Positions 1 to 16,431 of a DNA stretch of 64,000 nucleotides are shown piece by piece; the first letter of the stretch is position 1, and every line of letters begins with the position of its first letter. Source of the DNA: Pseudonocardia alni (GTDB lineage: Bacteria > Actinomycetota > Actinomycetes > Mycobacteriales > Pseudonocardiaceae); assembly GCF_002813375.1 (NCBI RefSeq), contig NZ_PHUJ01000003.1, positions 5,394,001 through 5,458,000 of the forward strand, read 5' to 3'. Made by a program: the position numbers and the translations under genes. The notes under the pieces were generated by a model that was given only the letters and a program-made list of their open reading frames with translations, was not told the DNA's origin and ran no database searches.

Positions 1-536
1 GGAGTTGGGGACGCCGTTGGTGAAGTCGGCGGGTATCGCGGCGGTGACCGCGGTGAAGGCGGCGCATCCGGACAAGTTGGTGTTCGCGGACCTGAAGACC
101 GCCGATGCCGGTGAGCTGGAGGCGGATCTGGCGTTCGGTGCGGGTGCGGATCTGGTGACGGTGATGGGGGTGGCCGACGACGACACGGTGCGGGGTGCGG
201 TCGCGGCCGGTGCCCGGCACGGGAAGCGGGTCGTGGCGGACATGATCGGGGTGGTGGACGGGCGGGTCGAGCGGATCCGTCAGGTCGCGGAGCTGGGTGT
301 GGCGTTCGTGGAGATCCATGCGGGTCTGGACGAGCAGGCGCGTCCGGGGTACTCGATCGACCGGTTGCTGGCCGACGGTCGGGCGGCCGGGGTGCCGTTC
401 TCGATCGCCGGTGGGGTGAAGGCGGACACCATCGGGTCGGTGCGTGAGGCCGGGGCGGTGGTCGCGGTGGCCGGTGGGGCGATCTACAACGCCGACGATC
501 CCGCCGCTGCCGCCGCCGAGCTCCAGAAGCGCATCG
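1..536 (+). repeat. Inverted repeat arm A (within hps copy 1)
   Basis: I compared this stretch by eye, line by line, with the reverse complement of 6094-6629 and found no mismatch over 536 bases (position p pairs with 6630-p). Identity ends at base 536, eight bases before the hps stop. The left boundary cannot be seen because the window starts inside the repeat. Confidence 0.95.
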
Positions 537-544
537 GCCGGTGA
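1..544 (+). CDS. hps: 3-hexulose-6-phosphate synthase, copy 1 (5' end outside window)
   Basis: Hexulose-6-phosphate synthase condenses formaldehyde with ribulose 5-phosphate, the entry step of the RuMP cycle; the family is a cytosolic TIM barrel of about 210 residues. The first complete codon is at base 2 and the reading frame was already open before the window, so roughly the first 28 residues are missing. Family motifs are visible: ADLKTAD with the active-site Asp and Lys, the VTVMGVAD strand, and the phosphate-binding SIAGGVK and AGGAIYNA segments. The stop codon overlaps the GTG of tkt (GTGA), so the two are translationally coupled. Bases 1-536 are identical to the inverted second copy at 6094-6629; only the last two codons differ. 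Confidence 0.95.
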   Translation, partial: ELGTPLVKSAGIAAVTAVKAAHPDKLVFADLKTADAGELEADLAFGAGADLVTVMGVADDDTVRGAVAAGARHGKRVVADMIGVVDGRVERIRQVAELGVAFVEIHAGLDEQARPGYSIDRLLADGRAAGVPFSIAGGVKADTIGSVREAGAVVAVAGGAIYNADDPAAAAAELQKRIGR

Positions 545-2676
545 CCGTCCGTACCGCGCCGCCGGGGGCGTCCGTGTCCCCGCCGCGCTCCGACGACGAG
601 CTGGCCCGGTTGACCGCCCCCCGGGTCCCCGCCGACTGGACCGACCTCGACCGGCGCGCCGTCGACACCGCACGCGTGCTGGCGGCCGACGCGGTCGAAC
701 GGTGCGGGAGCGGCCATCCCGGGACCGCGATGAGCCTCGCGCCGGTCGCCCACGCGCTGTTCCAGCGGGTCCTGCGGCACGACCCCACCGATCCGGACTG
801 GCTCGGCCGGGACCGGTTCGTGCTCTCCGCCGGTCATTCCAGCCTCACCCTCTACATCCAGCTCTACCTGTGCGGGTACGGCCTGGAGCTGGACGACCTG
901 AGGTCCCTGCGGACATGGGGCTCGCGGACGCCGGGCCACCCCGAGCACGGCCACACGGCCGGTGTCGAGACGACCACCGGCCCGCTCGGGCAGGGCCTGG
1001 CCAACGCGGTCGGGATGGCGATGGCCGCCCGGCGTGAACGCGGCCTCCTCGACCCGGACGCCGAGCCCGGCACCAGCGTGTTCGACCACCGGATCTACGT
1101 GATCGCCTCCGACGGCGACATCCAGGAGGGGGTGACCTCCGAGGCGTCGTCGCTGGCGGGGACCCAGCAGCTCGGAAACCTCACGGTGATCTACGACAGC
1201 AACGAGATCTCCATCGAGGACGACACCCGTATCGCGCTGTCCGAGGACACCGCGGCACGGTACGAGGCCTACGGGTGGCAGGTCCTGACCGTCGACGGCG
1301 GCGAGGACGTCGCGGCGTTCCTCGACGCCGTCGAGCACAGCAGGGCCGACAGCACCCGCCCGACGCTGATCGTGCTGCGCACGGTGATCGGCTATCCGGC
1401 CCCCGGGCTGATGAACACCGGCGCCGTCCACGGCGCCGCACTGGGCGGTGCGGAGCTCGCCGCGGTCAAGCGCAGCGTCGGTGCCGACCCGGAGCTCAGC
1501 TTCCAGGTCGACGACGACGTGCTGCGGCACACGCGGGAGGCGGCCGACCGCGGCCGTACCGCCCGCGCCGCGTGGCAGGTCGAGGCGGACGCGTGGGCCC
1601 GGGCGAACCCGGAACGTGCGGCGCTGCTGGACCGGCTCCGGCGACGCGAGCTGCCCCCCGGCTGGGCGGACGCCCTGCCGGTCTGGGAGCCCGGTGATGC
1701 CGGTGTCGCCACCCGCAAGGCATCGGGGACGGTGCTGGCGGCGCTCGGCGACAGGCTGCCCGAGCTGTGGGGTGGTTCGGCGGACCTGGCGGGGAGCAAC
1801 AACACGACGATCGCCGGCGCGGACTCCTTCGGCCCGGCCGGGATCTCGACGTCGAGCTGGAGCGCCCGGCCCCACGGACGGACGCTGCACTTCGGCGTCC
1901 GCGAGCACGCCATGGGGTCGATCCTCAACGGGATCGCGCTGCACGGGGGCACCCGGCCCTACGGCGGGACCTTCCTCGTCTTCAGCGACTACATGCGGCC
2001 CGCGGTGCGCCTGGCCGCGTTGATGGAGCTGCCCGTCGTCTTCGTGTGGACGCACGACTCCATCGGGCTCGGCGAGGACGGGCCGACCCACCAGCCCGTC
2101 GAGCAGCTGGCCTCGCTGCGCGCCGTCCCCGGCCTGTCCGTGGTGCGCCCCGCCGACGCGAACGAGACCGCGTACGCCTGGCGGACGGTGCTCGAGAACG
2201 CGGGCCCGGCCGGCCTGGCCCTGACCCGCCAGGCCGTGCCGACCCTGGAGGGCACCTCGCGGGAGGGCGTCGCACGGGGCGGGTACGTGCTCGCAGAGGC
2301 CTCGTCGGGACGTCCGGACGTCGTGCTCGTGGGCACCGGGTCGGAGGTCCAGCTCGCCCTCGGGGCGCGGCGGATGCTCGAGTCGGAGGGCGTCGCCACC
2401 CGGGTGGTCTCCCTGCCCTGCCTGGAGTGGTTCGACGGCCAGGACGAGGACTACCGGAACCGGGTACTGCCCCCGTCGGTCCGGGCGAGGGTCGTCGTGG
2501 AGGCCGGTGTGGCGCAGCCCTGGCACCGCATCGCGGGGGACGCCGGCGAGATCGTCTCGCTGGAGCACTTCGGGGCGTCGGCCGACGTCGCGACGCTGTT
2601 CGAGAAGTTCGGCATCACCGCCGCGGCCGTGGCCGAGGCCGCCCGGCGCAGCCTGGCATCGGTCGGCCGGGCATGA
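541..2676 (+). CDS. tkt: Transketolase
   Basis: Thiamine-diphosphate transketolase, 711 residues, a normal length. It moves two-carbon units between sugar phosphates and here regenerates ribulose 5-phosphate, the formaldehyde acceptor. Visible family features are GSGHPGTAMS near residue 60, the ThDP/metal motif SDGDIQEG followed by an Asn-containing loop around residue 180-220, and the pyrimidine-domain segment GVREHAMG near residue 455. The GTG start overlaps the hps stop by four bases, so the gene is part of the RuMP operon, which argues for a methylotrophy-dedicated isozyme rather than the housekeeping copy. The first 30 residues are Pro/Ala-rich and not conserved in the family. Confidence 0.96.
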   Translation: MTVRTAPPGASVSPPRSDDELARLTAPRVPADWTDLDRRAVDTARVLAADAVERCGSGHPGTAMSLAPVAHALFQRVLRHDPTDPDWLGRDRFVLSAGHSSLTLYIQLYLCGYGLELDDLRSLRTWGSRTPGHPEHGHTAGVETTTGPLGQGLANAVGMAMAARRERGLLDPDAEPGTSVFDHRIYVIASDGDIQEGVTSEASSLAGTQQLGNLTVIYDSNEISIEDDTRIALSEDTAARYEAYGWQVLTVDGGEDVAAFLDAVEHSRADSTRPTLIVLRTVIGYPAPGLMNTGAVHGAALGGAELAAVKRSVGADPELSFQVDDDVLRHTREAADRGRTARAAWQVEADAWARANPERAALLDRLRRRELPPGWADALPVWEPGDAGVATRKASGTVLAALGDRLPELWGGSADLAGSNNTTIAGADSFGPAGISTSSWSARPHGRTLHFGVREHAMGSILNGIALHGGTRPYGGTFLVFSDYMRPAVRLAALMELPVVFVWTHDSIGLGEDGPTHQPVEQLASLRAVPGLSVVRPADANETAYAWRTVLENAGPAGLALTRQAVPTLEGTSREGVARGGYVLAEASSGRPDVVLVGTGSEVQLALGARRMLESEGVATRVVSLPCLEWFDGQDEDYRNRVLPPSVRARVVVEAGVAQPWHRIAGDAGEIVSLEHFGASADVATLFEKFGITAAAVAEAARRSLASVGRA

Positions 2677-3334: not shown

Positions 3335-4306
3335 ATGTCGGCACCCGACATCAGCACACTGGAGGCGGTGGCCCTGGAGGCGACCCGCAGCGCCGCGGTG
3401 GCCGCCTACCCGTGGGCCGGCCGTGACGATCAGGATGCGGCCGACGCAGCGGCCACCGAGGCGATGCGCACAGCGCTGGCCCGCGCACCGGGGCGGGGGA
3501 CGGTGGTCATCGGGGAGGGGGAGAAGGACGACGCCCCCATGCTGTTCAACGGCGAGATCGTCGGGACCGGTGACGGGCCCGACTTCGACATCGCCGTCGA
3601 CCCCCTGGAGGGCACGTCGTTCTGTGCCCGGGACCTGCCCGGGGCGCTGGCGACGATCGCGTTCGGCCGGACGGGATCGTTCTGGTCGCCCGGCCCCGGC
3701 TTCTACATGGACAAGATCGTCGTTCCGCCTGCCGCGCGCGACGTCGTCGATCTGGACGACCCGCCCGAGCGCACCGTCGCCAAGGTGGCGGAGGCCGTGG
3801 GCAAGAAGGTCGGCGACCTGCGTGTGATGATCATGGACAAGCCACGCCACGCGGAGCTGATCGCCCGGGTGCTGCGGGCCGGTGCGGCGGTGCAGACCCC
3901 GGCCGGGGGCGACGTCGGCGGGAGCCTGGCGGTACTGACGCCGACCCTCGACGTCGATCTCCTGCTCGGCGTGGGGGGCACCCCGGAGGGTGTGCTGACG
4001 GCAGCCGCCGTCCGCGCGCTCGGCGGCGGGATGCTGGGCCGGCTCGCACCGCAGCGCGAGGCGGAGGCGGTGGCCCTGCGCGCCGCGGGCCGGTCGACCG
4101 ACCGCATCCTGCGCTGTGAGGAGCTGGTGGCGGACACGGCCTTCTTCGCCGCCTCCGGGGTGAACGGGGGCCCGTTGCTCGGCAGGCCCCGCAGCAGCGG
4201 CGGCACCACCGTCGTCGAGTCCCTGCTGATCACCGACGGGCAGATCCGCCATGTCACCCACACGACCTTCGACCGGGCCACCGGGACGAGGAGGGAGCAG
4301 CCGTGA
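3335..4306 (+). CDS. glpX: Class II fructose-1,6-/sedoheptulose-1,7-bisphosphatase
   Basis: GlpX-type bisphosphatase, 323 residues, normal length. The Li+-sensitive phosphatase signature is present: GEGEKDDAPML near residue 62 and the metal-binding DPLEGTSFC near residue 89, with the C-terminal GGTPEGVLTAAAVR segment. In a RuMP operon it most plausibly dephosphorylates sedoheptulose 1,7-bisphosphate or fructose 1,6-bisphosphate during the rearrangement that regenerates ribulose 5-phosphate; that preference is inferred from context. The ATG at 3335 has a GAGGAG sequence eight bases upstream. Its stop overlaps the next gene's GTG. Confidence 0.95.
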   Translation: MSAPDISTLEAVALEATRSAAVAAYPWAGRDDQDAADAAATEAMRTALARAPGRGTVVIGEGEKDDAPMLFNGEIVGTGDGPDFDIAVDPLEGTSFCARDLPGALATIAFGRTGSFWSPGPGFYMDKIVVPPAARDVVDLDDPPERTVAKVAEAVGKKVGDLRVMIMDKPRHAELIARVLRAGAAVQTPAGGDVGGSLAVLTPTLDVDLLLGVGGTPEGVLTAAAVRALGGGMLGRLAPQREAEAVALRAAGRSTDRILRCEELVADTAFFAASGVNGGPLLGRPRSSGGTTVVESLLITDGQIRHVTHTTFDRATGTRREQP

Positions 4307-5673
4307 CCCTGCACCGGGACGACCTCCGGGTCCGCGAACTGGGTGAGTGCCGCTACGACTCGCCGATGGCGGGCCTGCTCACCGCCAAACAGACCTCACC
4401 GCACTACGTGGCCGAGGGTGACCGGGTCCTCCTCGAGGACACCGTCTCGATGCTGGCCGAGCACGACCGGCCCTCCGTCGAGGCCGCGAGCTTCGAGGCG
4501 GCAGGTCCGCGTCGGCGGATCTACTTCCGGCCCGAGGGGGTCACCGCCGGGATCGTCACCTGCGGAGGGCTCTGCCCCGGCCTGAACAACGTGATCCGCG
4601 GCCTGGTGCAGGAGCTGACCGTGCACTACGGGGTCGAGCGCATCCTCGGCTTCCGCAACGGTCTGGAGGGACTGACGGCGGCCCGTGTCGACGACACGGT
4701 CGAGCTGACCCTCGACGACGTCCGCGACATCCAGAACTCCGGGGGCACGATCCTGGGCAGCTCGCGCGGCGGCCACGACCCGGACGAGATGGTCGACAGC
4801 CTCGTGTCCCGCGGTGTCGACATGCTGTTCGTGGTCGGGGGCGACGGGGGGATGCGCGCGGCCACCTGCATCAGCACGGCGATCCGGGCACGGGGCCTCG
4901 ACATCGCCGTCATCGGCGTCCCCAAGACGATCGACAACGACCTGCCCTTCACCGACCAGTCGTTCGGGTTCCAGAGCGCGTTCGCCCGGGCCACGGAGTT
5001 CATCACCGCGGTCGCGGTCGAGGCCGCCGCGAGCCGCGACGGTGTCGGCATCGTCAAGCTCATGGGCCGCCACTCGGGGTTCATCGCGAGCTACGCGGCG
5101 CTGGCCTCGAGTCTGGCCGACATCGTGCTGATCCCCGAGGTGCCGTTCGCCCTGGACGGTGACGACGGCCTCCTCGCGCACGTCGAGAGGCACGTGCGGA
5201 CCGCGGGACACGTCGTGATCGTCCTCGCCGAGGGGGCGGGTCAGGACCTGCTGGCGGAGCACCCGGTGGCCGGGTCGGCGACCGACGCCTCGGGGAACGT
5301 CCGGCTGGGCGACGTCGCCGAGCTCCTGCGGGAGCGCGTCGGCACGCACCTCACCGACGCGGGCCTCGCCCCCACGATCCGCTACATCGACCCCAGCTAC
5401 GCGATCCGCAGCGTGGCCGCGAACGCCTACGACAGCGTCTACTGCCTGCGCCTGGCGCACGCCGCGGTGCACGCGGCCATGGCGGGACGCACCGAGGCCG
5501 CGGTCGCGCGCTGGCGTCGCCGGTTCGTCCACGTCCCGCTGACCCTGATGACCAGCCGTCGCAACCAGGTCGACCCGAACGGCGACATGTGGCTGTCGGT
5601 GCTGGAGGCGACCTGCCAGCCCGCCGGGTTCGGCGCGGCCGGCGCACACCCCCTCCACGCGGGGTTCTGCTGA
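4303..5673 (+). CDS. 6-phosphofructokinase, plant/TP0108-like type
   Basis: 456 residues, clearly longer than the about 340-residue bacterial PfkA. The catalytic segment PKTIDND (residues about 205-211) and phosphate-binding GGDGG (about 178-182) are present. The Gly in GGDG is the ATP-type residue at the position where pyrophosphate-dependent enzymes carry Asp, while the Lys of PKTIDND is shared with plant PFKs and PPi enzymes. The Gly+Lys combination is that of plant-type ATP-PFKs, so ATP is the likelier phosphoryl donor, with PPi not excluded. The GTG start overlaps the glpX stop (GTGA). It ends the RuMP operon just before a perfect palindrome. Together with an aldolase not in the window it would open the glycolytic cleavage branch of the RuMP cycle. 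Confidence 0.9.
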   Translation: MTLHRDDLRVRELGECRYDSPMAGLLTAKQTSPHYVAEGDRVLLEDTVSMLAEHDRPSVEAASFEAAGPRRRIYFRPEGVTAGIVTCGGLCPGLNNVIRGLVQELTVHYGVERILGFRNGLEGLTAARVDDTVELTLDDVRDIQNSGGTILGSSRGGHDPDEMVDSLVSRGVDMLFVVGGDGGMRAATCISTAIRARGLDIAVIGVPKTIDNDLPFTDQSFGFQSAFARATEFITAVAVEAAASRDGVGIVKLMGRHSGFIASYAALASSLADIVLIPEVPFALDGDDGLLAHVERHVRTAGHVVIVLAEGAGQDLLAEHPVAGSATDASGNVRLGDVAELLRERVGTHLTDAGLAPTIRYIDPSYAIRSVAANAYDSVYCLRLAHAAVHAAMAGRTEAAVARWRRRFVHVPLTLMTSRRNQVDPNGDMWLSVLEATCQPAGFGAAGAHPLHAGFC

Positions 5674-6089: not shown

Positions 6090-6715
6090 GAGACGATGCG
6101 CTTCTGGAGCTCGGCGGCGGCAGCGGCGGGATCGTCGGCGTTGTAGATCGCCCCACCGGCCACCGCGACCACCGCCCCGGCCTCACGCACCGACCCGATG
6201 GTGTCCGCCTTCACCCCACCGGCGATCGAGAACGGCACCCCGGCCGCCCGACCGTCGGCCAGCAACCGGTCGATCGAGTACCCCGGACGCGCCTGCTCGT
6301 CCAGACCCGCATGGATCTCCACGAACGCCACACCCAGCTCCGCGACCTGACGGATCCGCTCGACCCGCCCGTCCACCACCCCGATCATGTCCGCCACGAC
6401 CCGCTTCCCGTGCCGGGCACCGGCCGCGACCGCACCCCGCACCGTGTCGTCGTCGGCCACCCCCATCACCGTCACCAGATCCGCACCCGCACCGAACGCC
6501 AGATCCGCCTCCAGCTCACCGGCATCGGCGGTCTTCAGGTCCGCGAACACCAACTTGTCCGGATGCGCCGCCTTCACCGCGGTCACCGCCGCGATACCCG
6601 CCGACTTCACCAACGGCGTCCCCAACTCCAGAATGTCCACGAACTCCGACACCCGATTCGCCAGCGTCAACGCCGACGGAAGATCCAGAACATCCAAAGC
6701 CACCTGCAACTGCAC
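6086..6715 (-). CDS. hps: 3-hexulose-6-phosphate synthase, copy 2 (complete)
   Basis: The complete second copy, 209 residues, beginning with the conserved QLQVALDVL strand. I chose the GTG at 6715 because GAGGAG lies just upstream and the length matches the family; a longer open frame to 6814 would add a Cys/Trp-rich tail absent from Hps proteins. The protein equals copy 1 over all comparable residues except the last two (Val-Ser here, Gly-Arg there). It is divergent from rpe, with a 151-base shared upstream region, and its stop overlaps the GTG of the 97-residue gene. Two genes for one enzyme on separate promoters would allow high Hps dosage when formaldehyde is toxic. Confidence 0.96.
6094..6629 (-). 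repeat. Inverted repeat arm B (within hps copy 2)
   Basis: Perfect inverted partner of bases 1-536. The two arms face each other across about 5.6 kb containing tkt, phi, glpX and pfk. Identity stops at 6094, near the end of hps. Gene conversion or a recent inverted duplication would explain the lack of silent differences. Confidence 0.95.
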
Positions 6716-6857
6716 GACGAACTCCTCACCACGACAACAGGAAGAACAACACCCCCACCGTCGCCCCGCCGACACCCACCCACAACACCACCACACATCC
6801 GGAAAACCGATCACCCGATCCGCACCCCGAATACCCCCACAACCGGAACGGCCGCCC

Positions 6858-6863
6858 TACGAT
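6858..6863 (+). promoter_or_regulatory. -10 box TACGAT of a leaderless rpe promoter
   Basis: TACGAT fits the actinobacterial TANNNT -10 consensus and lies three bases before the ATG at 6867 and six before the in-frame GTG at 6870. A transcript starting about seven bases after the box would begin at or next to a start codon, leaving no room for a ribosome-binding site. Confidence 0.5.
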
Positions 6864-6866
6864 CGA

Positions 6867-7574
6867 ATGGTGTCGAGACATTCGTCGAGAAGAACGCTGT
6901 TCGCCCCGTCCATCCTCTCCGCCGATTTCGCCCGTCTCGCCGAGGAGGCGGACGCGGTGCGCGGTGTCGACGGCCGGGGCGCCGACTGGCTGCACGTGGA
7001 CGTCATGGACGCCCATTTCGTGCCGAACCTGACCCTGGGCCTACCGGTCGTCTCCTCGCTGCTCGCCGCGACCGACCTGCCGCTGGACTGCCACCTGATG
7101 ATCGAGGACCCGGACCGCTGGGCGACGGGCTACGCCGAGGCGGGTGCCCACAACGTCACGGTGCACGCCGAGGCCGCCGCCGATCCCGTGGCCCTGGCAC
7201 GGGACCTGCGCGCGGCAGGCGCCCGCGCGGGGCTCGCGATCCGGCCCAGCACCCCCCTGGATCCCTGGCTCGAGGTGCTCCGGCACTTCGACACCCTGCT
7301 GGTGATGTCGGTGGAGCCCGGGTTCGGCGGTCAGGCCTTCGACCCGGATGTCCTCGACACGGTCCGCCGGGCCCGCACACTGGTCGACACCGGACACCTG
7401 GACCTGGTCGTCGAGATCGACGGTGGCATCAACGCCGACACGATCGAGCAGGCGGCGGAGGCCGGCGTCGACTGCTTCGTGGCCGGATCCGCGGTCTACT
7501 CGGCCGCGGATCCGGCACGGGCGCTGGAGGGGCTGCGCCGCCAGGTCGACGCCGTCCGCGACCGGCGTCGGTGA
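6867..7574 (+). CDS. rpe: Ribulose-phosphate 3-epimerase
   Basis: 235-residue TIM-barrel epimerase interconverting ribulose and xylulose 5-phosphate, needed to regenerate the RuMP acceptor. Family motifs: [13 protein letters not shown] at the N-terminus, the metal-site [32 protein letters not shown] and the catalytic Asp in VEIDGGIN. The frame is open much further upstream, but homology starts here, just after a TACGAT -10 box; the GTG at 6870 may be the true leaderless start. It diverges from hps copy 2. Its stop (7572-7574) directly abuts the stop of the convergent regulator, with no space for a terminator. Confidence 0.95.
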
Positions 7575-9032
7575 TCAGATGCCGAACCTGCGCCGGACGT
7601 CCGGGGCATGGCGCCGGGAGACCGGCACGCCCTCGTGCGACCGGCCGTCGGTGATCAGGAACAGTTCACCGCGCGGACCCCGCTCGATCTCGGCCACACG
7701 GCGCAGGTTCACCAGGTAGCGCCGGTGGACCCGTCGGATCCCGAACGGGGCGAGAGCCTGTTCGACGTTGTCCAGCCCGCGGGTGGCGGACTGGATCCGG
7801 CCCCGCTCGGTGACCAGCCAGACGGTGTTGCGGTCGGCCTCGGCGTAGCGGATCTCCGACGGGGTCAGCAGGACCAGCCGGTCGTCACGCACGCCGATCA
7901 CCCGCCGCGGGAGCACCTCGGAGGCCTGGCCACCGGCGTCACCGGGGGAGTAGGCCTCCCCGTCCGCGACCCCGACGGCGCACAGCAGTCCCACCACGCC
8001 CTGGCCGTCGACGACCGGCCACAGGGTGAGCGGGACCTCCGCCTCGCCGGGACACACCGCCAGGCGGGCGTGTCCGCACCAGTCCGGGCCGCACCCGGAC
8101 CGTTCGATCGCCCAGCGGACCACCTCGGGCAGACCGGGGACGTCGGGCACCCGGCGCGCCGCGGTCGCGCTCGTCCCGACGACGGGTGCCGCGCCGGTGA
8201 GCCCCAGTGCCACGGCCGCCTCGTCGTCGGCGGCGATCACGCTGCCGCCCCGGTCCATCGCGACGAGTGCGCCCCGCGTCCGGGCCGCCCGCGCCTCGAA
8301 CGCGGTGACGACGACATCTGCCTCGTACGCGGCCCGCCGGCGGATCACCTGCTCGACACAGGCGACGGCCTCCGTCAGCCACGGCAGCACGAGAGGCGGG
8401 AGGGACGCGTTCCACCGCGAGATGTTGATGGAGGCGACGGGTGCGCCGGTCACCACGTCCCGCACCGAGATGCCCGCGCACGCCCAGTCGTGGAACCCCT
8501 GGCACCAGTGCTCCGGACCGGTCACGGTCACCGGACCGTCCACCTCGAGCGAGGTGCCCATCCCGTTGGTCCCGGTACACGCCTCGGACCACGACGACCA
8601 CGGAGCGAGGTTGTGCAGTTCGGCGCGGCGCCGCGCCGACGAGTCGCCCCAGGCGCCCAGCACCCGCCCCCGGCTGTCCGCGACGGTGACGACGCCCCCG
8701 TCGCGTTCGATCTCGCGGCCCGCCATCGCGCCCAGCCCACCGAGGGCGGTGAACACCACGCCGTCGTCCACCCGGGGGCTCTCCGCGCCGCTGCCGGCTC
8801 CGGGGGCGACGTCCAGGGTGCTGTCGACCCCGTAGCGGTCCCGGCACCGGTACCACGACGCGAGGATCTCGGGACGCACCCCGGTCCTGACCTCGTTGCC
8901 CGCGGCGAAGTCCTCCCAGGTCCGTGCGACCTCGCGGACCGACGACGCCGCGACGAGCGGACCCCGCGGGGCGACGTTCCGGCTCCCGCTCCGCTCCGGA
9001 GCCAGGACCAGCGGTGGGACTCTCCCCGTCAT
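7575..9032 (-). CDS. GAF-LytTR transcriptional regulator A
   Basis: 485 residues. The N-terminal half has the architecture of AcoR-like activators: a helical EILASWYRCRDRYGVD segment (residues about 53-68) followed by a GAF sensor region containing NGMGTSLE and the EHWCQGFHDWACAG segment. Instead of the usual sigma-54 AAA+ and Fis domains, the C-terminal about 105 residues form a LytTR DNA-binding domain (EIRYAEADRNTVWLVT, HRRYLVNL). The ATG at 9032 is chosen because AAGGAGGT lies just upstream. It is paralogous to regulator B at 9386, from which it diverges. Its position between the RuMP and PQQ-dehydrogenase genes suggests control of methanol metabolism; the ligand is unknown. Confidence 0.88.
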   Translation of the reverse strand: MTGRVPPLVLAPERSGSRNVAPRGPLVAASSVREVARTWEDFAAGNEVRTGVRPEILASWYRCRDRYGVDSTLDVAPGAGSGAESPRVDDGVVFTALGGLGAMAGREIERDGGVVTVADSRGRVLGAWGDSSARRRAELHNLAPWSSWSEACTGTNGMGTSLEVDGPVTVTGPEHWCQGFHDWACAGISVRDVVTGAPVASINISRWNASLPPLVLPWLTEAVACVEQVIRRRAAYEADVVVTAFEARAARTRGALVAMDRGGSVIAADDEAAVALGLTGAAPVVGTSATAARRVPDVPGLPEVVRWAIERSGCGPDWCGHARLAVCPGEAEVPLTLWPVVDGQGVVGLLCAVGVADGEAYSPGDAGGQASEVLPRRVIGVRDDRLVLLTPSEIRYAEADRNTVWLVTERGRIQSATRGLDNVEQALAPFGIRRVHRRYLVNLRRVAEIERGPRGELFLITDGRSHEGVPVSRRHAPDVRRRFGI

Positions 9033-9103
9033 CGCGACCTCCTTGTCGCCGGGCGCCGGGGTCAGTTCGCCCCGGCCACCCACATCCGTTCTGCATTTCC
9101 TCC

Positions 9104-9126
9104 CGCCGGCACGTACGGTGCCGGCG
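9104..9126. promoter_or_regulatory. Candidate operator, 9-bp inverted repeat
   Basis: CGCCGGCAC and GTGCCGGCG form perfect arms around a five-base spacer, 72-94 bases upstream of the regulator A start. Its location suggests an operator for auto- or cross-regulation. In such GC-rich DNA it could also be an RNA hairpin or chance. Confidence 0.4.
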
Positions 9127-9303
9127 CCATGTGCCGGATCCGCGGGAACGTCCGCGCCGGCACACTCAGCCGACGACGTCCGGCATGCGGGGGAAGCGTG
9201 TGCCGTTTCGACGGCGCAGTGATCGGACGCTTCTCCCGGAGAGCGCGCCGCGCCCGCCTGTCACGCATTCCCCGCCGTTCGTGATCTCCCGGCGCAGTCC
9301 GCT

Positions 9304-9332
9304 TGCCCTCGATTCGACCGTGCGTTTAGCGT
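9304..9332 (+). promoter_or_regulatory. Promoter of regulator B (TTGCCC-N17-TAGCGT)
   Basis: TTGCCC at 9304-9309 and TAGCGT at 9327-9332 are separated by 17 bases, a good SigA-type arrangement. It would give a leader of about 46 bases before the ATG at 9386, where a GGCGG sequence precedes the start. Confidence 0.5.
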
Positions 9333-9385
9333 GCGAGTCAGGTTGCATCACCGCGCTCGAGCGAGACAGACCAAAGGCGGTCGCC

Positions 9386-10783
9386 ATGCCACAGGTAGTG
9401 CGTCCCGGCACCGGCCCGGAGGACGCCGACGTGCGGCGGGCCTGGGAGCGGTTCGCCGCCGGTGACGACGCGCTCAGCGGGATCCGGCCCGAGATCGCGG
9501 TGTCGTGGCACCGGTGCCGGGACCAGTACGGGGTCGACCCGCTCATCTCCGAGGCCCCGGCCGCCGTGACCGAGGTCGTCCACACCCTGGAACACGACGT
9601 CGTCATCGCCGAGCTCGGGTTCCGGGCCGGCCCCATCGCCCACGAGCTGAGTGGAGAGGGCGGGATCGTCACCATCGCCGACGCCAACGGCCGGGTGCTC
9701 GCGCAGTGGGGCGACGAGGCGACCCGTGCACTCGCCGCCGAGGCCAACCTCGCGCAGTGGTACTGCTGGTCGGAGAGCTCGGTCGGCACCAACGGCATGG
9801 GGACCGCGCTCGCGTCGCACACCCCCGTCACGGTCCGCGGCGCCGAGCACTGGTGCGGGGCGTTCCAGGACTGGAACTGCACCGGGGTCTCGGTCCGCGA
9901 CGCGGTGAGCCGACAGCCGGTGGCGGTCCTGAACATCTCCTGCTGGCGGCGCGAGCTCCCCCGGTCGGCGCAGGGATGGCTCGGCACCGCGGCGTCCGCG
10001 ACGCAGCGCATCCTGCGCCAGCGCGCGCGGGGCGACGGCACCGAGCTGATCGCCGCGGTCAACCACGCGCGGTCGTTGACGACAGCTCCGCTCGCCGGCG
10101 TCGACCCGGCCGGGCGGGTCGTCGTCGCCGACGACACCGCCGGGGTGCTGCTCGGCATCCCCGGCTCCACACCGGCGCCGGACCCGGCGGTCCGGTGGAG
10201 GCCCGAGCTGCCCGAGTTCATCCGGGCCGCCCGGTACGCCGCGGGGCAGGCGGGCAGGGACGCCGGCTGGACCGGCTCGACGCAGATCCTCACCCGGCTC
10301 TCCCGCGAGCCGATGACGATCAGCTTCCGTCCCGTGTTCCTCGCCGGGCACCTGGTCGGCAACGTCGTCTCCTTCGGTGTCTCGGAGGGCGAGCCGCTTC
10401 CCGCGTCGACGGACGCCCCGGACGCGCCGGCCGCCCCGCAGACCCCGCCGCGCCGGCTCGTCGCGGCCCGCGAGAACAGGATGGTCCTGCTGCGCCTGGC
10501 GGAGGTCGCGTTCGCGCAGTCCGACGGCAACGACGTGTGGCTGACCACCGACGAGGGGCAGATGCGGTCCGCGTCGCTGGGGCTCGACCGGCTCGAGTCC
10601 GAGCTGAACGGCGCCGGCTTCCTACGGGTGCACCGCCAGTTCGTGGTGAACCTCAGCCGGATCCGGGAGGTCGAACGCCGGGAGAAGGGCGAGCTGGTGC
10701 TCGTCATGGACGACCCGGCCGAGACGGTCGTGCCGGTGTCCCGCCGCAACATCCCGACGGTCCGCCGCGCGCTCGAACTCTGA
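9386..10783 (+). CDS. GAF-LytTR transcriptional regulator B
   Basis: 465 residues with the same layout as regulator A: the AcoR-like EIAVSWHRCRDQYGVD segment (about residues 34-49), a GAF region with NGMGTALAS and EHWCGAFQDWNCTG, a variable centre, a Pro/Ala linker (about 335-353) and a C-terminal LytTR domain (EVAFAQSDGNDVWLTT, HRQFVVNLSRI). Conserved Cys and Trp residues shared by both proteins in the GAF region could take part in ligand sensing; this is inference. It is divergent from regulator A and convergent with the PQQ-dehydrogenase operon. Two such paralogues side by side may bind as hetero- or competing dimers. Confidence 0.88.
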   Translation: MPQVVRPGTGPEDADVRRAWERFAAGDDALSGIRPEIAVSWHRCRDQYGVDPLISEAPAAVTEVVHTLEHDVVIAELGFRAGPIAHELSGEGGIVTIADANGRVLAQWGDEATRALAAEANLAQWYCWSESSVGTNGMGTALASHTPVTVRGAEHWCGAFQDWNCTGVSVRDAVSRQPVAVLNISCWRRELPRSAQGWLGTAASATQRILRQRARGDGTELIAAVNHARSLTTAPLAGVDPAGRVVVADDTAGVLLGIPGSTPAPDPAVRWRPELPEFIRAARYAAGQAGRDAGWTGSTQILTRLSREPMTISFRPVFLAGHLVGNVVSFGVSEGEPLPASTDAPDAPAAPQTPPRRLVAARENRMVLLRLAEVAFAQSDGNDVWLTTDEGQMRSASLGLDRLESELNGAGFLRVHRQFVVNLSRIREVERREKGELVLVMDDPAETVVPVSRRNIPTVRRALEL

Positions 10784-10798: not shown

Positions 10799-11002
10799 TC
10801 AGCCGCGGTAACGGTGCACGTCGCAGACGCAGTACATCAGCCGGCACTCGAAGCATTCGGGCTTCCCGACGCAGGTGATGCAGGGGCCGCACTCCACCGG
10901 CTCGGTGTGGCGGGCCATGTCCTCGGGCCCGAAGCGCTCGCCGCACAGCATGCACGGCAGGTTCTGCCGCGGTCGTGTGGCCGGGGTCTGGGTCATCGTC
11001 AT
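10799..11002 (-). CDS. Small Cys-rich protein downstream of the PQQ dehydrogenase
   Basis: 67 residues if started at the ATG at 11002; an in-frame ATG at 11071 would give 90, and neither has a strong ribosome-binding site. It contains nine Cys, arranged CxxC, CxxCxxC, CxxC and CxC, plus several His, a pattern typical of zinc-ribbon or other metal-binding proteins; the family is not recognised. No signal peptide. It is the last gene of the cupredoxin/PQQ-dehydrogenase operon, about 100 bases after it. It could hold metal for, or help assemble, the dehydrogenase; that is inference from context. Confidence 0.65.
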   Translation of the reverse strand: MTMTQTPATRPRQNLPCMLCGERFGPEDMARHTEPVECGPCITCVGKPECFECRLMYCVCDVHRYRG

Positions 11003-11099
11003 CACCGTCGGTTTCCGTGGTCGGGCCGGTACACCCGGCCGGTGGGGCCGCAGACGCGACCACGTCCCCACCGGCCGGGTGCTGGTCAGAGGACCGGTG

Positions 11100-12782
11100 T
11101 CACAGGGAGAACACGATCAGTGATGCCCCGTGTCCCTGTCCGGACAGACCCGGCACGATGCCCTCCAGCCAGCCGCCCCATCCGACCGGGACCGCGATGT
11201 ACTGCTTGCCGTCCACGGTGAAGGTGCTCGGGCTGCTGTGATGGCCGCTGCCGCACTGGAAGCTCCAGAGCTTCTCGCCGGTCTCGGCGTGCAGCCCCAG
11301 GAACTCGCCCGCCGGCGTGCCGGCGAACACCAGGTTCCCCGCGGTGCTCAGGGTCGAGGCGGCCATCGGCATGTCCTTGAGCCGGTAGCGCCACTTCTCC
11401 TCGCCGTGCGAGTCGAACGCGCTGACCGAACCGGCCATGTTGTCGATGTCGACCTCGACGGCGGCACCCCAGTAGGGCATGCCCTCCTTGAACTCACGGC
11501 GCCGGCGGGTGGCGGTGGCACCGACGTCGGCGACCGGGACGTAGAACAGGTCGTGGTCGGGGTTGTAGGACGCGTGGGTCCACTCCTTCGCGCCCGCCGG
11601 TCCCGGGAAGAAGTGGCAGGGCTCGCCCTCCTTGTCCGGGTACTTGCGCGGGGTGACCTTGCCGTCGCGCGTGATGACGCCCCAGTCGATCCGGTCCACG
11701 AACGGGGTGACGTGCTGCAGTTCGCCGTTCGTCCGGTCCAGGACGAACATGTACCCGTTCTTGTCGAAGTGGGCCAGGAGCTTCTTCCCGTCCCGCTCGA
11801 ACAGGGTCATCTCCATCGTGGAGTCGTAGTCCCAGAGGTCGTGCGGCGTGAACTGGTAGTGCCACTTGATCTCGCCGGTGTCCACGTCCAGCGCGACGAC
11901 GCTGTCGGTGTAGAGGTTGTCGCCGGGGCGCACCTCGCCGTCGAAGTCCGGGGCCGGGTTGCCGGTGCCCGCGTAGTACAGGTTCAGCTCGGGGTCGTAG
12001 GTGCCGGTGACCCAGTGGTTCGCGCCGCCGCGCTGCCACGCCTCACCGTCGTCGGGCCAGGTCTCGGACCCCGGCTCGCCCGGCTTCGGCACCGTGTAGG
12101 TGCGCCAGCGCTGCTCGCCCGTCTCCAGGTCCCAGGCGTCGATGTGGCCTCGGACGCCGTACTCACCGCCGGCGGAGCCGGTGATGAGGAAGTCCTTGAT
12201 GACCAGCGGCGCGATCGAGGCGCTCTCGCCGGCGCGGACGTCGCCGATGGTCTTCTGCCAGACCCTGCGCCCGGTGGTGGCGTCGAGTGCGACCAGCTGC
12301 GCGTTCTGGGTCACCATGTAGACCTTGCCGTTGGCGACCGCACAACCGCGGTTGACGTTGGCGCAGCACAGCGTCACGTCGATCGGGATGGCGTGCTTGT
12401 AGCGCCACAGCTGCTCGCCGGTCACGGCGTCGAGCGCCCAGATCTGGCCGTCCCAGCCCGTCACGAACATGACGCCGTCGACGACGATCGGGCACGCCTC
12501 GAAGGCGTAGGTGGAGGTCGAGGCCATCATGCCGGTGGCGCTCGCCTGGAAGATCCAGGCGACCTTCAGGTCCTTGACGTTCCCGGTGTTGATCTGGTCC
12601 AGCAGGCTGTGGCGCTTGCCGTCGTAGTCGCCGTAGTAGGTGATCCAGTTGTGCGACTCGCTGCGCGCCTGCAGGATCCGGTCGTAGTCCAGCCCGCGTG
12701 TCACGTCCGGTGCGCTGTGCGGGAGGTTCGAGAGCTTGCTGTGGTCGAACGCCTTGCCTGCGTCCACGTACTCGATGGTCAT
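11100..12782 (-). CDS. PQQ-dependent alcohol/methanol dehydrogenase, lanthanide-type active site
   Basis: 560-residue eight-bladed propeller quinoprotein of the methanol/ethanol dehydrogenase family. Visible features: vicinal Cys139-Cys140 followed by xNVNRG (the strained disulfide over PQQ), metal ligands Glu206 in GGEYGVRG and Asn275 in GTGNPAP, catalytic Asp318 in HDLWDYD, and Asp320 two residues later, the extra ligand that marks lanthanide-dependent XoxF-type enzymes (Ca enzymes have Ala there). It would oxidise methanol to the formaldehyde used by Hps. The family is normally periplasmic or exported, but the N-terminus is hydrophilic with no signal peptide; the start is firm, with AAGAAGGG just upstream and a neighbour's stop 15 bases away. 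No cytochrome c domain. No PQQ biosynthesis genes are in the window. Confidence 0.92.
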   Translation of the reverse strand: MTIEYVDAGKAFDHSKLSNLPHSAPDVTRGLDYDRILQARSESHNWITYYGDYDGKRHSLLDQINTGNVKDLKVAWIFQASATGMMASTSTYAFEACPIVVDGVMFVTGWDGQIWALDAVTGEQLWRYKHAIPIDVTLCCANVNRGCAVANGKVYMVTQNAQLVALDATTGRRVWQKTIGDVRAGESASIAPLVIKDFLITGSAGGEYGVRGHIDAWDLETGEQRWRTYTVPKPGEPGSETWPDDGEAWQRGGANHWVTGTYDPELNLYYAGTGNPAPDFDGEVRPGDNLYTDSVVALDVDTGEIKWHYQFTPHDLWDYDSTMEMTLFERDGKKLLAHFDKNGYMFVLDRTNGELQHVTPFVDRIDWGVITRDGKVTPRKYPDKEGEPCHFFPGPAGAKEWTHASYNPDHDLFYVPVADVGATATRRRREFKEGMPYWGAAVEVDIDNMAGSVSAFDSHGEEKWRYRLKDMPMAASTLSTAGNLVFAGTPAGEFLGLHAETGEKLWSFQCGSGHHSSPSTFTVDGKQYIAVPVGWGGWLEGIVPGLSGQGHGASLIVFSL

Positions 12783-12797
12783 GGTGATTCGCCCTTC

Positions 12798-13277
12798 TTA
12801 CGGTCGCGGCTGGGCAGGACGGTCGAGCTTCGCCTCCGGTGGTACCTCACCGGTCACCACGATCGCGGCGGTCAGACCACGGCCCTCGTCGTTACCCGCG
12901 GGTGAGCCGTACCAGTAGCAGCCGGGACCGTCGAGCTCGATCGTCGCGCTCCCCTTGGAGTGGTTCACCAGGCCGATGAACTGCCGGTCCCCGTTGCTGG
13001 GCAGCAGGCACGCGTGGGTGTTCTTGTCGTCGTTGATGATGGTCAGCTCGAGCGTGCCGCTGTGCGGCATGATCAAGATCGCCGGATCCCACGTCATGGC
13101 GTCCTCGGGGATCCTGATCGTCGCCTCCATCACGCCGTCGGGACGCTCGGTCGCCCGGGCGACCGAGCCGGTCCCGAGCACCGCGCCGATGGTCGCGCGG
13201 TTCTGCCCGCTGAGTTCGGCCAGGAGTTCCTCCCGGCTGTCCTGGGCCGAGTCCTCGCGGTCCTGAATGGATGTCAT
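12798..13277 (-). CDS. Cupredoxin-like protein, candidate electron acceptor of the PQQ dehydrogenase
   Basis: 159 residues. The C-terminal about 105 residues look like a cupredoxin beta-sandwich: the strand LELTIINDDKNTHACLLPS with a possible copper His, then IELDGPGCYWYGSP with the expected Cys. The usual Cys-x(2-4)-His-x(3-4)-Met end of a type 1 site is not evident, so the metal site is degenerate or different. No signal peptide is seen: the start at 13277, with GAGGAGG upstream, gives a hydrophilic N-terminus. It is the first gene of the operon, 15 bases before the dehydrogenase, and the likely redox or structural partner of it. Confidence 0.65.
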   Translation of the reverse strand: MTSIQDREDSAQDSREELLAELSGQNRATIGAVLGTGSVARATERPDGVMEATIRIPEDAMTWDPAILIMPHSGTLELTIINDDKNTHACLLPSNGDRQFIGLVNHSKGSATIELDGPGCYWYGSPAGNDEGRGLTAAIVVTGEVPPEAKLDRPAQPRP

Positions 13278-13941: not shown

Positions 13942-16143
13942 TCAGATCAAGTCGAAACGGTCGAGCTCCATGACCTTGACCCATGCCGCGACGAAATCGC
14001 GGACGAAACGGTCAGCCGCGTCGTCCGCGGCGTACACCTCGCACAGCGCCCGCAGCTCCGAGCTGGACCCGAAGACCAGGTCGACCCGGCTCGCGGTCCA
14101 CCGCAGCTCACCGGTGTCCACGTCCCGGCCCTCGAACACGGACCCGTCGCCGTCGGGGCTCGCCGACCACCGGGTGCGACCGTCGAGGAGGTTCACGACG
14201 AAGTCGTTGGTCAGCGTCCCCGGGGACGTCGTCAGCACGCCCGTACGGGAACCGCGGTGGGTGGCTCCGAGTACACGGAGCCCGGAGACGAGGACGGTCA
14301 TCTCCGGTGGGGTCAGCGTCAGCAGCGCGGCCCGGTCCACCAGCAGGTGCTCGGGCGCGATGCCGGAGGTGTCCCCGACCCAGTTGCGGAACCCGTCGGC
14401 GCGCGGCTGCAGGGCCGCGAACGATCCGGTGTCGGTCCACTCCTGCGTCGCGTCGGTGCGCCCGGGCCGGAACGGCACCACGACCTCGTGCCCGGCGTCC
14501 GCGGCGGCGCGTTCCACCGCCGCGCACCCGCCGAGCACGACGAGGTCCGCCATCGTGATCCGCCTGCCGCCGGTGTGCGCCCCCTCGAACCGCTCCCGGA
14601 CCCCCTCCAGGACGGTGAGGACCTCGTCGAGCTGTTCCGGGTCGTTGACCGCCCAGTGACGCTGGGGCGAGAGCCGGATCCGTGCTCCGTTGGCGCCTCC
14701 GCGCTTGTCGGTGTCGCGGTAGGTCGAGGCCGACGCCCACGCGGTGCCGACGAGCTGGGCGACGGTCAGGCCGGACCCGAGGACCATCCGCTTGAGAGCG
14801 GCGACGTCGTCGTCGTCGACCAGCTCGTGGTCGACCTCGGGGACCGGGTCCTGCCAGAGGAACGGCTGCTCGGGGACGAGGGGACCCAGGTATCTGCGGG
14901 CCGGGCCCATGTCGAGGTGGGTGAGCTTGAACCAGGCCCGGGCGAAGGCGTCGGCGAACTCGTCCGGGTCGTCGAGGTAGCGACGCGCGATCGACTCGAA
15001 CCCGGGATCGGCCCGGAGCGCGAGGTCGGTGGTGAGCATGACCGGGTGCGAGCGGACCCCGGGGTCGAACGGGTCCGGCACGGTGTCCGCGCCGCCGCCG
15101 TCGCGGGGGACCCACTGCCACAGGCCGGCGGGGCTCAGCTCGACGTCCCACTCGTACTCGAAGAGCGTCTCGAGGTAGGTGTGGTCCCAGCGGGTCGGGG
15201 TGCGGGTCCACGCGCCGTGCAGCCCGGCGGTCACCGTGTCCGGGCCGAGGCCGGTGCCGTGACCACCGCTCCAGCCCATGCCCTGGGCGGTCAGCGGAGC
15301 TGCCTCGGGTTCCGGTCCCGCGGTGACCATCGGGTCCGCCGGGCCGTGCATCCGGCCGAACGTGTGACCCCCCGCGATCAGTGCGACGGTCTCGGCGTCG
15401 TCCAGGGCCATCCGGCGGAAGGTCTGACGGATGTCGCGCGCGGACAGCTTCGGGTCGGGGTTGGTGGCCGGACCCTGCGGGTCGACGTAGATCAGCCCCA
15501 TCTCGCTCGCACCCAGCGGCTCGTCGAGCTCGTGGAGACCGGTGTAGCGCCGCTCCGACAACCACTTGCGCTCGGGGCCCCAGTACGTGTCGTCCGGTTC
15601 CCACACCTCCGGGCGCCCGCCGGCGAACCCGAGCGTCGTGAGCCCCATCGACTCCAGTGCACGGTTGCCGGCGAAGATCATCAGGTCGGCCCAGGACAGG
15701 CACCGGCCGTACTTGCGCTTCACCGGCCAGAGCAGGCGCCGCGGCTTGTCGAGGTTGCGGTTGTCCGGCCAGCTGTTCAGCGGGGCGAAGCGCTGCATGC
15801 CGGCGGCGGCTCCGCCCCGGCCGTCACCGGCGCGGTAGGTGCCCGCCGCGTGCCAGGCCATGCGCAGCACCAGCGGTCCGTAGTGACCGGAGTCGGCGGG
15901 CCACCAGTCCTGCGAGGTGGTGAGCACCTCGTCGACGTCCCGGGCGAGCTCGTCGAGATCGACGGTCGCGAAGCGCGAGGGGTAGTCGTCGTCACGCGGG
16001 TGCGGTCTGCGCAGCGGTGCGAGATCGAGCCGTTGTGGCCACCAGTCCCGAGGGCGCAGGTGGGTGGCCTCGGCGCCGGACCCTGCGCCCGCCAGGATCT
16101 GGTCGTAGGTGCGGTAGACGTGGGTGTCGGGGTTCTCGGGCAT
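13942..16143 (-). CDS. katG: Catalase-peroxidase KatG
   Basis: 733 residues with the two-domain layout of bifunctional catalase-peroxidases. The distal haem triad Arg94-Trp97-His98 lies in [11 protein letters not shown]; the Tyr of the Met-Tyr-Trp adduct is expected in [11 protein letters not shown] and the proximal His in GGHTFGR. It removes hydrogen peroxide and peroxides. The ATG at 16143 has GGGGAGGA upstream; the frame is open another 64 codons but that part is low-complexity. No fur-like furA gene precedes it, unlike in mycobacteria, where furA-katG is the rule. Confidence 0.96.
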
Positions 16144-16431
16144 CGTCGTCCTCCCCGGGCGACCGTCCATCGTGCCCCGCCGCCCCCGGTCGGACAGGGG
16201 CGTCGACGCCCCGGCCGGTCCCCGTGGGCATCGCGCCGGCGATGTCGGACCCGCTCCTGGCGGCCCCGCCCGCCCGGGGCCGGTTCCCGGTCCGTGCGCG
16301 GGGCCCTTCGGAGCATCGCTGGCGCGACGGGGCATCGCAAGGGGGCCGGAACCAGCGGTCGCCGATCGGTGCCGAACGGGGTCGGGGCGAACGCGAACGG
16401 ATCAGCTGTGGGCCCCGTACGGCGCCGGGCG

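Follow-up and report, generated by a model that had tools for sequence, protein, structure and literature searches.

A PQQ alcohol dehydrogenase without signal peptide and its partner protein of predicted cupredoxin fold in Pseudonocardia alni and relatives

The locus and its genome

The window, i.e. the whole stretch of DNA that was analysed, comprises 64,000 nucleotides of a Pseudonocardia alni contig (NZ_PHUJ01000003.1). It carries the genes of a PQQ-dependent alcohol dehydrogenase and of a small partner protein, transcribed on the minus strand in the order katG, partner, dehydrogenase (Table 1). The genes hps, tkl, glpX, pfk and rpe adjoin the pair, and fba is found further upstream. In profile searches the dehydrogenase was assigned to TIGR03075 (618.8 bits, cut-off 480.05) and the partner both to TIGR04339, 'MSMEG_3727 family PQQ-associated protein' (258.6 bits, cut-off 75), and to PF23509 (248.3, cut-off 27), i.e. 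to a named but functionally uncharacterised family. KatG likewise exceeded its family cut-off (994.5 compared to 770.25 bits), and the small Cys-rich protein had no match in Pfam or NCBIfam. The two LytTR-domain regulators, located at 7575-10783 and weakly similar to DhaR in their N-terminal part, are convergent or divergent around the locus, and one kind of them goes with katG in most relatives.

Table 1 Genes at the dehydrogenase locus, with positions in the window
Gene product	Position	Strand	Remarks
3-Hexulose-6-phosphate synthase-like gene (hps; OMPdecase/HUMPS family)	1..544	+	begins ~90 bases before the window
Transketolase (tkl)	541..2676	+	
GlpX fructose-1,6-bisphosphatase	3335..4306	+	
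Phosphofructokinase (pfk)	4303..5673	+	
Ribulose-phosphate 3-epimerase (rpe; RuMP rearrangement)	6729..7574	+	ORF opens at 6387; start 6729 assumed
LytTR-domain regulator	7575..9083	-	
LytTR-domain regulator	9386..10783	+	nearest to the regulator adjoining katG in relatives
Small Cys-rich protein, several CxxC pairs	10799..11071	-	present in 35/79 related loci
PQQ-dependent alcohol dehydrogenase, without signal	11100..12782	-	560 aa; TIGR03075
MSMEG_3727-family partner (TIGR04339/PF23509)	12798..13277	-	159 aa; predicted cupredoxin fold, type-1 copper ligands absent, no signal peptide
katG catalase-peroxidase	13942..16335	-	true start likely near 16143

The genome to which the window belongs contains pqqB, pqqC and pqqE (369.9, 311 and 528.8 bits, each above its cut-off), a search for which had been proposed in the first-pass annotation. 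They lie ~240 kb from the pair, with a Na/Ca-exchanger gene close to them, and their presence led us to reject a lack of PQQ supply. TIGR04339 occurs as a single copy in this genome, and a second katG is present elsewhere in it. Two methanol:NDMA-type dehydrogenase genes were also found (862 and 686 bits, cut-off 625). Methanol oxidation thus need not rest on the PQQ dehydrogenase, and the idea of this enzyme as the sole methanol enzyme was rejected.

Signal peptides and conserved residues of the pair

The first-pass annotation, made from the sequence of the window, held that the start of the dehydrogenase is fixed, that its N-terminus is hydrophilic and that the partner has no signal either, and on all three points it proved right. 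Five codons ahead of the dehydrogenase ATG, and in frame with it, stands the stop codon (TAA) of the partner gene, the intervening sequence being AAGAAGGGC. This makes a longer dehydrogenase start impossible. Simple hydropathy and motif tests were applied to the N-termini. In the window dehydrogenase they revealed neither a hydrophobic core nor a twin-Arg motif, and a conserved short extension, MTxEYVDAGxA..., stands in place of a signal peptide. No signal peptide was seen in the window partner.

The same was found in the relatives. The comparison covered 90 related loci, namely L010-L019 and L026 from the phylum scan and 79 from genome contigs, the latter being the distinct ones among 80 kept of 183 confirmed related stretches. 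The dehydrogenase follows directly after the partner in 88 of the 90, the two misses (L019 and L103) ending at contig edges. Alignment to the window dehydrogenase begins at residue 1 in 78 of 88 relatives and at residues 2-5 in the other ten. In 31/89 dehydrogenases and 64/91 partners the start is preceded by an in-frame stop at a distance of at most 12 codons, and none of the upstream start codons in the 89 dehydrogenases or 91 partners would yield a strongly hydrophobic N-terminus. Clear upstream signal peptides in relatives, named in the first-pass annotation as an outcome that would refute it, were not encountered in the family. Together with the in-frame stop in the window, this rules out a mis-annotated start.

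With a loose hydropathy filter, positives were obtained for 12 of the 91 partners, at a conserved segment (ATIGAVLGTGSIA) covering a helix in the model of the window partner, and for two of the 89 dehydrogenases. The same filter picked up 8 of 13 aligned control quinoproteins; the five it missed were one with a twin-Arg motif, three with short or uncertain starts, and a Natrinema protein without signal. A twin-Arg pattern occurs in three of the 91 partners (L060, L097 and L105), where the following residues are not signal-like by eye. Among other quinoproteins of the phylum (TIGR03075 matches, n=11; L117, L120, L122, L124 and L131-L136 were left out of this reading), nine have a strong hydrophobic N-terminus and the remaining two a twin-Arg motif (L119) or a lipobox (L127). 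When family members were read as these controls were, 9/9 were without hydrophobic N-terminus, twin-Arg motif or lipobox. By such sequence tests, the missing signal is a property of the family in both the dehydrogenase and the partner, and it extends across two classes.

The ligand residues of the dehydrogenase are equally constant. The complete set of catalytic ligands and the Asp318-x-Asp320 pair, already recognised in the first-pass annotation, hold throughout: E207, N275, D318, D320 and the vicinal pair C139-C140 are unchanged in 79/79 full-length family members (dehydrogenases below 540 aa, 10/89, were left out of residue counts) and in 6/6 members of the second class. The 13 controls of the dehydrogenase alignment comprised 11 from plasmid records of other phyla and two of the same phylum. 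Lys341 stands where XoxF5 and most of these controls have Arg, the position of the catalytic active-site Arg of MxaF/XoxF. Asp at the position of D320 has been tied to lanthanides (excerpts of PMC5487730). It is also found in XoxF5 and in 11/13 control quinoproteins, the other two having Ser or Thr, and it therefore does not set the dehydrogenase family apart. Cys510, His514 and His515 are unchanged in all 85 family members (79 + 6), and the two His residues are missing from all 13 controls. It is possible that these three residues form a putative second metal or acceptor site.

The best sequence matches of the dehydrogenase in the PDB were 6zcv and 6zcw (quinoprotein ethanol dehydrogenase, 366 and 365 bits), presumably PedE/PedH, followed by quinohaemoprotein alcohol dehydrogenases (334 and 316 bits) and the XoxF structures 6dam and 4mae (290 and 282 bits). 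Of the 13 controls in the dehydrogenase tree, a single one was annotated as XoxF; the closest dehydrogenase to that of the window in this tree was from Pseudonocardia sp. MH-G8. The PDB scores favour PedE/PedH, and by score the dehydrogenase is nearer to these and to quinohaemoprotein alcohol dehydrogenases than to XoxF/MxaF. It is therefore safer to speak of a PQQ alcohol dehydrogenase that has a lanthanide-type site than of a XoxF. The structure model of the dehydrogenase was only fair (pLDDT 69.8).

PedH/PedE are thus the best solved relatives. The window dehydrogenase has Asp at the PedH lanthanide position and differs from them in Lys341 and in His514-His515. PedH/PedE are periplasmic (excerpts of PMC5487730), whereas the window dehydrogenase has no signal. 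With XoxF it has the fold family, the ligands and Asp320 in common. However, XoxF systems possess a signal and typically a XoxG cytochrome and XoxJ (excerpts of PMC10875860), and the window pair has neither a signal nor a nearby c-type cytochrome.

A haloarchaeal PQQ propeller protein with the CC, Glu, Asn and Asp-x-Asp ligands is encoded on a Natrinema plasmid (L156 7887-9599). It has no evident signal peptide and is the control nearest to the family in the tree, so that the lack of a signal may predate the dehydrogenase family. The gene adjoining it is uncharacterised and does not resemble the partner.

The partner sequence had no informative match in the PDB (best E 0.36), and its fold was assigned from a predicted AlphaFold2 model (pLDDT 80.3, pTM 0.75, 57 sequences). 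The model matched auracyanin (Foldseek, E 2.3e-7) and, with VIA-align, CopA/CupA domains, nitrosocyanin and CuA domains (Z 13.3 to ~10; for 4f2f Z 13.3, rmsd 2.5 and 98 aligned). The partner was described at first as cupredoxin-like, which agrees with the predicted fold but not with the copper site. Partners shorter than 130 aa (1/91) were left out of the residue counts, and five weak family-profile matches from other genomes served in the alignment of copper ligands. Those five, when read, had full copper motifs and mostly an N-terminal hydrophobic segment or a lipobox. In the partners the first copper His (H88) is retained in 90/90, but the Cys is replaced in 90/90 by Gly or Ser (40 and 50), the second His in 90/90 by Thr, Ala, Gly, Val, Leu or Ser, and the Met in 89/90 by Leu. 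The replaced loop reads GNDEGRGL. The partner thus has the fold of type-1 copper proteins (auracyanin, nitrosocyanin) and of CopA/CupA cupredoxin domains, but differs from them in its Cys, second His and Met positions and in having no signal or lipobox. These losses make a role in copper electron transfer unlikely; we rejected the blue-copper electron carrier as a candidate, and the partner is probably not a protein of this kind. That its Asn129-Asp130-Glu131 loop binds a hard metal is a guess.

Gene neighbourhood in relatives and in a second class

Neighbouring genes in the 79 loci were counted by tblastn. A katG gene is present in 72 of them, from 19 of 21 genus labels, and a LytTR regulator in 68, the two regulators being homologous so that their counts overlap. 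The PQQ genes pqqE, pqqC and pqqB were found in 38, 37 and 33 loci, respectively, and at least one of the three in 41/79. An MntP-like transporter occurs in 42/79 loci, a Na/Ca-exchanger-like one in 13/79 and both in 0/79, a lack of overlap with P ~1e-5 under independence of the loci, an assumption that does not hold here. The two transporters are unrelated (Na/Ca exchanger PF01699, L009 6581-7687; MntP PF02659, L065 1943-2491). They appear to be alternatives at the locus, and are candidates for the handling of lanthanide, calcium or manganese.

Of the 73 loci for which more than 2.5 kb of upstream sequence was available, 55 have katG on the same strand no more than 1.5 kb upstream. Four of the seven loci without katG (L044, L055, L057 and L080) have less than 1.4 kb of upstream sequence. 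By our own estimate, fewer than 1 % of random 20-kb stretches would contain katG. The Trp-Tyr-Met and the distal and proximal active-site residues of KatG are intact in 63/63 sequences, i.e. those of the 72 loci and the window that remained after sequences of 600 aa or less were dropped.

In a second class (family f19) the arrangement partner-dehydrogenase-pqqBCE was found in six loci, with mntP in five of them and with no katG or regulator near the pair in any of the six. KatG was absent from the whole genome in 8/8 searched second-class genomes carrying the pair. KatG as an obligatory part was accordingly rejected. It appears as an addition in actinomycete loci to a core of the pair, PQQ genes and a cation transporter. 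PqqC chemistry yields peroxide, but the idea that KatG is present merely for this reason was also rejected, as katG is present in 34 loci whose available sequence contains no pqq gene. A sample of 396 genomes from the phylum included nine with a TIGR03075 match above cut-off, and each of the nine exceeded the cut-off of TIGR04339 as well.

The called genes of the 79 loci were scanned for CxxCH within 8 kb of the pair, skipping loci in which the partner gene call was missed. The motif occurred in three gene calls, none of them cytochrome-like by eye. Within this range neither a XoxG cytochrome gene nor any other electron acceptor gene was found.

Many copies from Amycolatopsis, Prauserella and Pseudonocardia (L027-L051) are located on contigs of ~14-27 kb together with RuMP genes. 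This arrangement may represent a repeat-flanked or mobile methylotrophy island.

Cellular location and possible role of the pair

We consider it rather probable, judging from the genes and their neighbours, that the pair is a cytosolic quinoprotein alcohol dehydrogenase with a dedicated small subunit or chaperone. The first-pass annotation had offered, as one of two possibilities, a cytosolic PQQ methanol oxidation system coupled directly to RuMP. Its cytosolic part is favoured by the signal-less pair in two classes, by the signals of the phylum controls and by the fact that no c-type cytochrome is encoded close by. For the coupling, the RuMP genes beside the window copy speak in favour, and hps, rpe or fba are near the pair in 33/79 related loci. 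That such genes are found near in these 33 loci only, and that katG is missing in the second class, weighs against the full mechanism as set out below.

In the best reading the dehydrogenase is probably a lanthanide-dependent alcohol or methanol dehydrogenase feeding RuMP. The beta-propeller enzyme with its lanthanide-type Asp320 would remain in the cytoplasm, the site of PQQ synthesis. In the window organism it would oxidise methanol, its most likely substrate, and perhaps other small alcohols, and the formaldehyde would arise within reach of hexulose-phosphate synthase for fixation. The partner, with a loop of Asn, Asp, Glu and Gly in place of the copper site, is likelier to be a structural subunit or a loading factor for metal or PQQ than a copper electron carrier. 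The MntP- or Na/Ca-exchanger-type cation transporter linked to the pair probably regulates how much metal is supplied, or else disposes of metals that compete. A parallel is known in NRAMP, which is reported with XoxF3 (excerpts of PMC10875860). In actinomycetes KatG may remove peroxide connected to the pathway. The complete chain in a Gram-positive lineage, i.e. a cytosolic lanthanide-dependent quinoprotein alcohol dehydrogenase, a formerly copper-binding partner as metal or PQQ subunit, a dedicated cation transporter, reoxidation by O2 with KatG in actinomycetes and formaldehyde passing directly to RuMP, we regard as doubtful.

The main argument against a cytosolic location is the invariant Cys139-Cys140, as the cytosol is reducing. 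In exported relatives this vicinal pair forms a disulfide. Like the vicinal cysteines, the family-specific Cys510 is invariant, and PQQ alcohol dehydrogenases have been described as periplasmic oxidation systems (excerpts of PMC5487730). The pair might thus be exported without a signal of its own, as a Tat passenger or by specialised secretion, and act at the cell wall with a membrane-bound cytochrome c as acceptor. However, no exported carrier is apparent among the identified recurrent neighbours (KatG, PqqB, PqqC, PqqE, LytTR, the Cys-rich protein and MntP or Na/Ca-exchanger), no c-type cytochrome gene is near, and the core is without signal in the second class too. Export by a route without classical signal we consider unlikely, if somewhat less so than the complete chain.

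A cytosolic PQQ alcohol oxidase, reoxidised by O2 and with KatG destroying the H2O2, would be a bacterial counterpart of the alcohol oxidase and catalase pair of yeast. It would account for the presence of katG in 72/79 loci and 19/21 genus labels, also with rearranged gene order and in the 34 loci without pqq gene, as well as for the intact KatG active sites, the second katG elsewhere in the window genome and the lack of another electron acceptor nearby. Quinoprotein dehydrogenases are poor oxidases, however, and the 8/8 second-class genomes with the pair but without KatG also speak against such an enzyme, which we find less credible than export and than the complete chain. Least credible to us is a relic locus, or one serving some other purpose, with a propeller protein that is regulatory or does not bind PQQ: the ethanol growth of Mycobacterium smegmatis, dependent on mycofactocin (excerpts of PMC6529628), would fit, but all ligand residues are invariant in 79/79 members, and pqqB, C or E accompanies the pair in 41/79 loci and in 6/6 second-class loci.

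By family profile, one of the closest known systems is the MSMEG_3726/MSMEG_3727 locus of M. smegmatis (TIGR03075 and TIGR04339/PF23509); the window partner exceeds the cut-off of the family that bears the name of MSMEG_3727. MSMEG_3726 has been described as the lone PQQ alcohol dehydrogenase in a PQQ cassette (Haft 2011, PMC3023750, and PMC6529628, both in excerpt), and MSMEG_3721-3727 are mentioned in the latter. Its authors found that growth on ethanol needs mycofactocin, from which they concluded that the PQQ locus has no overlapping role in the conditions used. The excerpts of the two papers that concern the MSMEG locus do not discuss the missing signal, the copper loss or the linkage to katG and a transporter. 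Among the papers listed in searches of the open-licence PMC literature, none had a title or opening lines dealing with the location, the copper loss or the katG link of the dehydrogenase-partner family. XoxF was not found in Gram-positive MAGs, which did not surprise the authors, the enzyme being periplasmic (excerpts of PMC10875860).

A cytosolic pair would contradict the rule that quinoprotein alcohol dehydrogenases act outside the inner membrane; lanthanides would have to be handled in the cytosol, and the acceptor would have to be something else than periplasmic cytochrome c. The partner clearly invites structural work, as a cupredoxin whose copper site is gone from all members examined. 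An NAD-linked PQQ methanol dehydrogenase complex was reportedly described in Nocardia sp. 239 in 1984. PQQ synthesis on methanol by Actinobacteria, reported for this RuMP actinomycete (Hazeu 1983), has been taken to suggest a PQQ methanol dehydrogenase there (excerpts of PMC5606694), and for this observation a candidate gene family is now available. A cytosolic location of the pair would explain the use of PQQ by Gram-positive methylotrophs.
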